Below are positions 57,376 to 63,092 of a stretch of 64,000 bases of DNA, piece by piece (the first letter of the stretch is position 1; each line of letters begins with the position of its first letter). Position numbers and translations under genes: made by a program. Source of the stretch: an archaeon (GTDB lineage Archaea; Thermoproteota; Thermoprotei_A; Marsarchaeales; Marsarchaeaceae); assembly GCA_021800035.1 (NCBI GenBank), contig JAJYZJ010000001.1, positions 18,236-82,235 of the forward strand, read 5' to 3'. The notes beneath the pieces are model-generated. The model saw nothing but the letters and a program-made list of their open reading frames with translations, had not been told where the DNA came from and made no database searches.

Positions 57376-58176
57376 CTAGTTGACGAACGCATTTTCGCCT
57401 GCGCTAGAACAGTTGCACTCCCTCGGCTCAACAGAAGCCGCCACTGCTTTGTAAAGTATTTTTCTCGCGCTTTCCACATTTTTACGCTGAGTCTCCACAA
57501 CCTCCTTTGCATTTACCGGACTGCTGGCCCATACATCAAAATCTGTTACGAGCGCAAGAGTACAATAACAAAGCGATAGTTCCCGAGCGAGTACTATTTC
57601 CGGGACTAGAGTCATTCCGACAACATGGGCTCGGAACTGTCTCCAGAGCTCAGACTCAGCTCTTGTGCTGAATCTGGGACCTTCTATGCAGAGGTATGTT
57701 CCTCCTGCACGATACTTGATCCCGACTTCTTCAGCTGCCCGGCCGAGCTGGACGAGCAATTCTGGGCAAAAAGGGTCTGCCGCGGAGAAGTGAGCAACTT
57801 TGGGCCCGTCATAGTAAGTGTAGCACCTGTTCTTCGTCATGTCTATGAATTGATCAGGGAAGACCACAGTGCCGGGCGGGAGGTCCTCTCGCAAACTGCC
57901 GACAGCGCTTGGCGCGAAAATACGCTCCACTCCGAGCTCCTTTAGCGCCCAGAGATTTGCCCTGCTGTTTATCTTGTGAGGTGGAATCGTATGGCCCCTT
58001 CCGTGTCTAGGGAGGAAGGCCACCCGTTTGCCACCTATCTTCCCTACATGGATAGAGTCGCTCGTCTCGCCATATGGGGTATGCTTGTTTATTTCTTGGG
58101 GGTCTGTCAGTAGAGCAGGGTCGTAAAAACCGCTTCCTCCAATTATGCCAATACTGGCTCTCAAACTCACGTTCAC
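57376..58176 (-). CDS. mtnP: S-methyl-5'-thioadenosine phosphorylase
   Basis: IGIIGGSGFYDPALL, LPRHGRGHTIPPHKINSRANLWALKELGV, CIEGPRFSTRAESELWR. Confidence 0.93.
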   Translation of the reverse strand: MNVSLRASIGIIGGSGFYDPALLTDPQEINKHTPYGETSDSIHVGKIGGKRVAFLPRHGRGHTIPPHKINSRANLWALKELGVERIFAPSAVGSLREDLPPGTVVFPDQFIDMTKNRCYTYYDGPKVAHFSAADPFCPELLVQLGRAAEEVGIKYRAGGTYLCIEGPRFSTRAESELWRQFRAHVVGMTLVPEIVLARELSLCYCTLALVTDFDVWASSPVNAKEVVETQRKNVESARKILYKAVAASVEPRECNCSSAGENAFVN

Positions 58177-58824
58177 TGGAACACTTTCCCCATATTAGAC
58201 TTTGCTGAATAAGGTCCCGTGCCGGCCATGCACAGAATGTTAGTGAACTCAACTGTTGGGAGAACCCTTGGAGATGAACCGTTAGCCCAACTCCAAACCT
58301 CGGCGGGAACGCCGACCCCACGAATCTAAGCCGCAGGCACAAATACTAAACATTCACGGCGCTCCGTTCTAATCTCTACGGCATCGCTTTACCGATTCAT
58401 GGACCCCATATCAAGTGTTGGGACAGCAAGACCTGCCGTGGCCTGCCGCAGCTAACCGAAAACATCAAACTCCCTCAGTGAGCCAATTAATGCCAGTTCG
58501 AAGACTGGTGCCAAACCATATGATTTGGGGAGCGTGCCAAGCCACTGCATTGCAATCTTATGTTTTCCCGCACGGCTTTTCGATCGTATCAAGTTCGTTG
58601 CAGCCACTTGGGAAGTGGGCAGGCGCTCTTCAAAGTGCGCGGGAATGTTTTATCAAGATTTTCGAGGGAGATCTTGCCTGTTCGGTTTCTGCAATCTTGC
58701 CATGGCGCAGAGTCAAAGTAGAGTTCACGCGCATTTAGCTGTTGGGTGAACACGGTGACCGGCTCTGAGCGAGGCAGCCGAAACGCTTTTACCGATAGTG
58801 CATCGATGGAGGAGGTCGAATCGC

Positions 58825-59322
58825 ATGGAAGAGATTTATCTCGGAAGGATGGAGACACTCTCTGAGATGGAATCCCACTATTCCAAGGGAGATGTGGATT
58901 ATTTCGTTCGTGCGTTGAAACACCCAGATCGTGTCATCAGAATCAGAGCCTTAAGTGTGCTCGAAGTGCTAGGAAATAGCTCCACCGTATCTCCAATAGG
59001 GGAAGTTTTGGAGCGAGAGGGCGACGAGATAGTACGCCACGAAGCTGCTTTCGTGCTTGGACAGTTGGGCTATTCCACTGCATTACCGTATCTCGAGAAG
59101 GCAGCTCTGCATGACACTTCGACCATAGTACGCCACGAGGCCGCAGTGGCCATGGGAGTTATCGGGTCCGAGGAAGCCGAGGAAACACTGAAACAGGCAT
59201 TCAATCTGGATGCGAGCCCGTCTGTGCGTTTTTCAGCTGAGATAGCGCTCTCGAATTTGGAATTCCTGAAGCTTAATCGTGGTAAAAGCAGTCTGGATTT
59301 CGCTCGAAGAACAGGTGGTTAG
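58825..59322 (+). CDS. HEAT-repeat protein resembling one half of deoxyhypusine hydroxylase
   Basis: Two HE motifs 32 residues apart: VRHEAAFVLGQLGYSTALPYLEKAALHDTSTIVRHEAAVAMGVIGSEEAEETLKQ. Confidence 0.75.
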   Translation: MEEIYLGRMETLSEMESHYSKGDVDYFVRALKHPDRVIRIRALSVLEVLGNSSTVSPIGEVLEREGDEIVRHEAAFVLGQLGYSTALPYLEKAALHDTSTIVRHEAAVAMGVIGSEEAEETLKQAFNLDASPSVRFSAEIALSNLEFLKLNRGKSSLDFARRTGG

Positions 59323-59328
59323 TCGACA

Positions 59329-59718
59329 GTGGTCCAAGGCTCGCTGGGCTCCGATAGGGAAGCTTTACTGCAAGAGCTGGACGAAGTTCGGCTACTTCAC
59401 ACCAAGCTGAAAGTGGAGATTCGCAGGGTATCGCGCAAGGTGAAGTGGGCCCGGGAAAGCTATACTCGAGTGATATCGAGCGCATTTTGCCCTATGTGTC
59501 TGAGGCCACTTGATCTTTCGGAGAAATACGAATATTCTGAAAAAGTGGCGCAGGAGATTCAGAAGCTCGAAGAACTTCTAAAGAAAGACACTTTCCGTCT
59601 GGACGAGACAGAATCTAAAATGGCCATACTTCAAGCCGATATTGATAGAATAGAAAGGGGAGGCAGACCTCCATCAGGCTCGCAGGAGTCAGAAAAACAC
59701 TCAGGCGAACCTATTTAG
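59329..59718 (+). CDS. Hypothetical coiled-coil protein with CPMC motif
   Basis: SSAFCPMCLRPLDLSEKYEYSEKVAQEIQKLEELLKK; directly downstream of the HEAT protein. Confidence 0.6.
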   Translation: MVQGSLGSDREALLQELDEVRLLHTKLKVEIRRVSRKVKWARESYTRVISSAFCPMCLRPLDLSEKYEYSEKVAQEIQKLEELLKKDTFRLDETESKMAILQADIDRIERGGRPPSGSQESEKHSGEPI

Positions 59719-61754: not shown

Positions 61755-63092
61755 TTGAAGATCACATCCTATCCGAGCGTAGGGCGATGGCTATCCAGAG
61801 TTCTTTCAAGAAGGACACGGTCAGAAGGCACCGTTCGGGTCTATCTATTCCATCTAATGAAGTTCTGCGAGTGGGCTAAGAAGTCTCCGGATGAGCTGAT
61901 AACTGAACACCTTAAGAATCAAGAATCTCCTGTTGAGGCCGTAAGAAGATTACATGAGGAGCTTGTTACCCAATATTTTCTCTTTTTGGAATCTACGAAG
62001 AAGCTATCCAGGAATACTGCCATACTTGCACATGCTACTATAAGGAGCTTCTACAAGGCAAACTATGCGCCATTGAAGCTTGAGACGCCGGAAAGCTGGC
62101 CCACTCGGCACGATAAGATTCCTACGAGGGCCGAGGTGCAGGCGATGTTGAAGGCGGCCAAGACTCCGCTAGAAAAGGCAATCTTGGCTTTTTCTGCCCA
62201 ATCGGGACAGAGAGTTGGCGTCATAATTTCGCTCAGATATCATATGGTAAAGGAAGCGCTTGCAGATGATGGCCCTGGGAGAATTCATGTCCCGTCCGAC
62301 TTGAAAGATGCCAAGGGCCATCTCGTAAACAAGCGTCGCCAGAATTATGATTTTTTCATAGGCGAGGATGCAAAATCGCTCCTAAAGTCTTACTTAGAAA
62401 CGCGAGGACAACTACACGGGGATGACCTTGTATTTGTAAACCCACGGAGAATAAGAGGTCGAACTGTGGCTCTGGATGATGAGGCCGTCAACAGGATGCT
62501 CAAGACTGCATCGAGAACAAGCGGCCAGTCTGTGGCTACTTCTAGGACTGTACACCATCATGTGCTAAGGAAGTATTTCCAAACCGCCATGGAAGAAGCG
62601 GGGGTTGCAGCAAACTGGTACAACTATATGATGGGCCATGTGCTCCCCAAAACCCAGCAGGCCTACTCCAAGCCATCATTGGAACAGCTCAAATCGGCCT
62701 ATGCCCGGGCTGAACCAAATCTAGGCTTATTGTCAGCTCTATCGCCTGAACGCACTTTCAGGACGGAACCTTCTTTGCTGAGAGAGCAAGCAGGTATGAA
62801 TGGCACAAGCTCAGCTGGGGAACTGAAGAAGGTTTTCGAACCTCTTGGCCATTCGCACCTTACCAGTGACCATCTGGACGCTCCCTACGCTACACACGGG
62901 GGAATCCCACAGACAAACGCGAGCCCCCAGGTATCGTCATCATCAGCCAGGTTGTCAAGAAACACATCGAAAGTTGAAAGAAGAATCGTTCCCCAAGAAG
63001 AACTTGAGACCCTATTGACAGACGGCTGGGAACCCGTAATGGAAATGTCAAACGGCCGCGTTGTAGTGCGCAGAGAGATATCAGTAGTCTGA
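61755..63092 (+). CDS. Tyrosine recombinase/integrase family protein
   Basis: SGQRVGVIISL (Arg), VHHHVLRKYF (HxxR), MMGH, QQAYSKP (Tyr) catalytic-box pattern; SAM-like N-terminal domain. Confidence 0.88.
   Translation: MKITSYPSVGRWLSRVLSRRTRSEGTVRVYLFHLMKFCEWAKKSPDELITEHLKNQESPVEAVRRLHEELVTQYFLFLESTKKLSRNTAILAHATIRSFYKANYAPLKLETPESWPTRHDKIPTRAEVQAMLKAAKTPLEKAILAFSAQSGQRVGVIISLRYHMVKEALADDGPGRIHVPSDLKDAKGHLVNKRRQNYDFFIGEDAKSLLKSYLETRGQLHGDDLVFVNPRRIRGRTVALDDEAVNRMLKTASRTSGQSVATSRTVHHHVLRKYFQTAMEEAGVAANWYNYMMGHVLPKTQQAYSKPSLEQLKSAYARAEPNLGLLSALSPERTFRTEPSLLREQAGMNGTSSAGELKKVFEPLGHSHLTSDHLDAPYATHGGIPQTNASPQVSSSSARLSRNTSKVERRIVPQEELETLLTDGWEPVMEMSNGRVVVRREISVV

Follow-up and report, generated by a model that had tools for sequence, protein, structure and literature searches.

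A half-length HEAT-repeat protein of aerobic archaea as a candidate deoxyhypusine hydroxylase

Deoxyhypusine hydroxylase and the hypusine pathway in archaea

Hypusine is an unusual amino acid carried by a translation factor, and deoxyhypusine hydroxylase (DOHH) completes its synthesis. The enzyme is a symmetrical dyad in which two arms of four HEAT repeats cooperate at the active site (PMC8153317). Its irons are anchored by H56, H89, E90, H207, H240, and E241, and the deoxyhypusine chain is bound by E57, E90, E208, and E241 together with two glycines, of which G214 is named (PMC9117371). Hypusine is present in some archaea (PMC3306375, PMC5178350, PMC6105217, PMC8153317), where no DOHH was known in 2012 (PMC3306375), 2016 (PMC5178350), 2018 (PMC6105217), or 2021 (PMC8153317). 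Our literature search for a DOHH in Thaumarchaeota found none; preprints and most subscription papers lay outside its scope, and a prior report is possible.

The window analyzed here is a 64,000-nucleotide stretch of a Marsarchaeaceae contig. It encodes a 165-residue HEAT protein (Table 1) that is a testable candidate for the enzyme reported missing in archaea by this literature. The same genome holds both of the components expected alongside a DOHH, namely a deoxyhypusine synthase (DHS) above the equivalog cut-off and an aIF5A with a KPGKHGSAK site, the latter missed by the Pfam eIF-5a model and detected by the NCBIfam model. A second DHS-family gene (L012:1441-2496, on G000:C43) scored above the cut-off as a 1,9-bis(guanidino)-5-aza-nonane synthase. 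All three of these genes are located away from the HEAT gene. For the organisms in which we found the HEAT gene (the carriers), no report of hypusine was found in the literature searched.

Table 1. Features at and around the HEAT-repeat gene (positions in the window)
Feature	Position	Strand	Basis or remark
Phosphorylase superfamily gene, probably a methylthioadenosine phosphorylase (polyamine by-product route)	57376-58176	-	PNP_UDP_1; upstream neighbor
Ribosome-binding site GGAGGAGG	58808..58815	+	Read from sequence
Half-length DOHH-like four-HEAT-repeat protein, 165 aa	58825..59322	+	ORF, Pfam HEAT_2, AlphaFold2 pLDDT 93.9
First His-Glu pair H72-E73, then invariant G79-Q80	59038..59043 (HE)	+	Invariant, 33 aligned homologues
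Second His-Glu pair H104-E105	59134..59139	+	Invariant, 33 aligned homologues
Coiled-coil protein, 129 aa, one CPxC motif	59329..59718	+	Next gene downstream
Tyrosine recombinase (Phage_integrase)	61755-63092	+	Same place in sister genome

The gene, its paired His-Glu motifs, and its predicted fold

The gene is real and under purifying selection, since its differences from the G001 ortholog (95% protein identity) are mostly third-position or synonymous: 14 of the 21 base differences fall at third codon positions, with dN at 0.022 and dS at 0.118. Its ATG start lies 9 nt 3' of the ribosome-binding site. It is single copy, no second HEAT_2 protein was found in the genome, and the only match in a single-protein scan of genome contigs was the 95% identical sister. 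Pfam recognized HEAT_2 (1.5e-31) and also HEAT_PBS, and none of the NCBIfam families reached its own cut-off. NblB scored 40.4 bits (cut-off 300) and CpcF 24.4 (cut-off 220), which places the protein outside the PBS-lyase HEAT family as delimited by the NblB and CpcE/F cut-offs.

The initial annotation had quoted a DOHH-like peptide with paired His-Glu (HE) motifs in a protein of half the length of DOHH, and both observations hold: the two HE pairs are present, and the protein has four repeats where DOHH has eight. Across 33 aligned homologues with 36–95% identity to the 165-residue protein, no substitution is seen in either pair, in the V-R that precedes each, or in G79-Q80, and in all 50 of the open reading frames of this main family that were read, the pairs are exactly 32 residues apart. 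In human DOHH, each half has a spacing of 33. For a generic baseline, comparable repeats were picked by regular expression from 17 generic HEAT proteins, archaeal and bacterial; none of the 91 repeats had an HE at the comparable place. HE was likewise missing from the whole length of two HEAT proteins from bacterial plasmids that ranked among the best matches. As the pairs are invariant in homologues while the generic repeats lack them, they are more than chance, which also bears out the claim that the protein is distinct in this respect from generic PBS-lyase HEAT proteins.

With the 33-homologue alignment, AlphaFold2 returned a confident model of the 165-residue protein (pTM 0.89; mean pLDDT as in Table 1), in which an N-terminal helix leads into four HEAT hairpins and then into a less confidently predicted tail with Gly-Gly at its end. 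Each HE pair occupies positions 5-6 of its inner helix, the first in helix 68-81 and the second in helix 100-113. Because the positions match in these adjacent helices, both pairs should face the same concave surface, judging by helix register. Among PDB structures, the best natural fold was human DOHH (4d4z; TMq 0.71, E 1.7e-4). Designed consensus HEAT proteins (alphaReps, crystallization helpers, and one designed trimer) ranked above it, some under the title of the complex in which they were solved, and QueG, CpcE/F, and YibA ranked below.

The gene for the CPxC coiled-coil protein lies directly 3' of the HEAT gene in all loci of family f1 that carry it and was not seen elsewhere; its product has weak similarity to the Rad50 zinc hook (E 0.084). 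In 17 loci of ammonia oxidizers, a gene of cluster 5, whose representative in L066 is SMC/RAD50-like, lies near the HEAT gene. The upstream phosphorylase gene is kept in L002, L003, and L005.

Comparison with DOHH and other HEAT proteins

The initial annotation had also proposed a specific resemblance to DOHH, and searches in both directions agree with it. When human DOHH (a query identical to 4d4z, residues 1-289) was searched against 36 genomes, the HE-HE HEAT protein was the top match in every carrier, at 35-55 bits, and generic HEAT proteins and non-carriers gave at most 17 bits. In reverse, the 165-residue protein searched against the PDB found DOHH as the best named natural protein, behind the designed HEAT proteins, so that the two are mutual counterparts. 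The archaeal protein aligns as one four-repeat DOHH arm, with 33% identity to the N-terminal half over 136 aa (E 5e-17) and 37% to the C-terminal half over 109 aa. In two sister genomes and in G352, the DOHH match extends across one in-frame TAG; readthrough of that codon into the next gene, which is in frame, was considered and rejected, as ordinary adjacent genes account for the longer match.

The likeness extends to the arrangement of the site. As in human DOHH (4d4z) and yeast Lia1, repeats 2 and 3 of the four-repeat arm carry the HE pairs on neighboring inner helices, LGQ follows the first pair with its glycine seven residues after the first histidine, and the second pair is part of V-R-H-E. 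In the alignment, the HE pairs, G79, and Q80 of the archaeal family match DOHH residues for iron or substrate. However, DOHH has eight repeats in two arms on one chain and four HE pairs, whereas the archaeal protein has a single four-repeat arm and two invariant pairs, and four would come together only upon dimerization. Main-family frames are 160-237 aa long across all carriers, and no four-HE fusion was seen among them in the 398 Thermoproteota genomes searched. The archaeal family also differs from DOHH in its conserved N-terminal Met-Glu helix and, in most homologues, a C-terminal Gly-Gly tail. There is good support for the view that the protein works as one half of a DOHH does; strict identity with DOHH fails, as the definition comprises eight repeats and four HE motifs.

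CpcE/CpcF, NblB, and other PBS-lyase HEAT proteins share the generic HEAT architecture, and among curated NCBIfam models it is NblB that scores highest with the 165-residue protein as well as with DOHH, though far under its cut-off. In contrast to DOHH, these proteins have lower fold scores, and the generic bacterial HEAT proteins that we inspected have no HE pairs. When the four HE columns of the profile were masked, the DOHH halves scored 58-59 bits and the best generic HEAT protein 56, a strict comparison given that the generic set was itself largely picked as best matches. With the masked DOHH score barely above generic, most of what is specific to DOHH lies in the active-site motif, and the likeness could be convergent. 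Common ancestry of the archaeal family and DOHH is likely.

The suggestion of an ancestral-type DOHH fared less well. The two DOHH halves are sisters in our tree (100/99), but their attachment relative to the archaeal families is not fixed and the branches are long, so that ancestral status is not established. We put forward only tentatively, as a possibility open to considerable doubt, that the protein is the DOHH missing from Nitrososphaeria and aerobic archaea related to them, and that this half-enzyme, working as a homodimer, represents the state that preceded the duplication and fusion giving the eukaryotic enzyme.

Distribution, proposed mechanism, and alternative readings

A profile search of the 398 Thermoproteota genomes gave matches in 83. 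G216, whose match is a generic HEAT protein of 459 aa, and G398, whose match is a fragment, were set aside, and the other 81, with full-length homologues, are counted as carriers. The gene is near-universal in sampled ammonia-oxidizing archaea: it is found in 60 of the 62 genomes of f16, all four of f48, and all six of f52 (about 70/72) that are positive for the heme-copper oxidase gene COX1. These families are taken as ammonia oxidizers because archaeal AmoA scored above the cut-off in representatives of each. Further carriers belong to f26, f38, f64, f65, and f1, and AmoA was not found in the tested representatives of these five families. In the class of the genome studied here, the gene is present in 5 of 229 genomes, all of family f1. 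Overall, COX1 is present in 80/81 carriers vs 61/317 non-carriers, counts that are uncorrected for phylogeny and dominated by one family. Many COX1-positive genomes are without the HEAT gene, those of family f9 in the same class among them. Nor can the HE-HE HEAT protein be the sole archaeal solution: Sulfolobus acidocaldarius contains hypusine (PMC5178350), and our search of its genome, used as a control, returned no HEAT_2 protein, which implies a deoxyhypusine hydroxylase of another kind there.

Our preferred reading, held at slightly better than even confidence, is that of a half-length, DOHH-like protein that pairs with itself to build a di-iron center and uses it to hydroxylate the deoxyhypusine of aIF5A. 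From the dimer onward, the steps are inferred from DOHH, and this applies to the iron, the O2 chemistry, and the substrate alike. Two chains would pair face to face, as the N-terminal and C-terminal halves of the eukaryotic enzyme do, and H72, E73, H104, and E105 of both chains, four His-Glu pairs in all, would hold two irons. The reduced iron would bind O2 as a peroxo species, and the deoxyhypusine side chain, put on aIF5A by DHS, would then be hydroxylated. Since DOHH is a symmetrical two-arm dyad, a homodimer built from a single arm has a natural geometry, and it is preferred to a heterodimer because most carriers are without an HE paralogue.

Such a paralogue does exist, so that half-length HE-type HEAT proteins make up a broader class. 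Proteins of the paralogue group (L060, L061, and L070-L089, from ammonia-oxidizing archaea) are 165-200 aa long and resemble the main family in being half-length, in having two HE pairs 32 residues apart, and in having DOHH as best PDB fold (AlphaFold2 pLDDT 92.5). They differ in an invariant R-W-D in the first repeat, in mostly lacking LGQ after the first HE, and in being found in just 31/398 genomes. That narrow distribution means that the paralogue is no obligate partner of the main protein, and an obligate heterodimer as a general rule was rejected on this ground and on the absence of a separate paralogue gene from the genome studied here. Outside both groups, L063:851-1372 (on G348:C18) encodes a short HE-containing HEAT protein with an HE spacing of 42. 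Short HE-HE HEAT proteins are also encoded on two IMG/VR contigs, at L151:2926-3279 and L152:2799-3293; a terminase-like ORF was noted by eye near the former gene, whose product had no match among INPHARED phages.

Our confidence in aIF5A as the substrate is near one half mainly on account of this wider class. The protein could instead be a HEAT-repeat homodimer with DOHH-like oxygenase chemistry at an HE-type di-iron site, acting on a substrate other than aIF5A, which we regard as unlikely though well worth considering. The set of half-length HE proteins is a broad one, with the paralogue group, the more divergent L063 protein, and the short proteins of the phage-like contigs L151 and L152, where deoxyhypusine is not expected. 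In addition, no gene-neighborhood link to DHS or aIF5A was seen in the loci examined, and a redoxin-like gene is among the neighbors in ammonia oxidizers. Against this, the human DOHH query ranks the main family closest, and the LGQ missing from most paralogues is retained there.

A protein that binds iron or zinc through its HE pairs as a sensor or scaffold, with no oxygenase activity, appears improbable. HE pairs by themselves predict metal binding, not chemistry, and the CxxC motif of the coiled-coil partner encoded next downstream in family f1 would suit such a role, but the Gly-Gln and the two-helix HE layout closely match the catalytic half of DOHH, and nearly all carriers are COX1-positive. 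Least probable is an ordinary PBS-lyase-type HEAT scaffold with incidental HE pairs, for although the protein matches generic HEAT profiles well, has designed consensus HEAT proteins at the head of its fold list, and is similar to DOHH at near-background level outside the HE columns, the pairs are absent from all the generic repeats and both plasmid proteins and stay invariant down to 36% identity.

With a conserved short protein that carries half a DOHH site, the question of an archaeal DOHH becomes directly testable. If it is a true enzyme of the kind we favor, the half-length protein would provide a model for the origin of the two-armed eukaryotic DOHH and would indicate a broader group of HE-type HEAT metalloproteins spanning archaea and phages.
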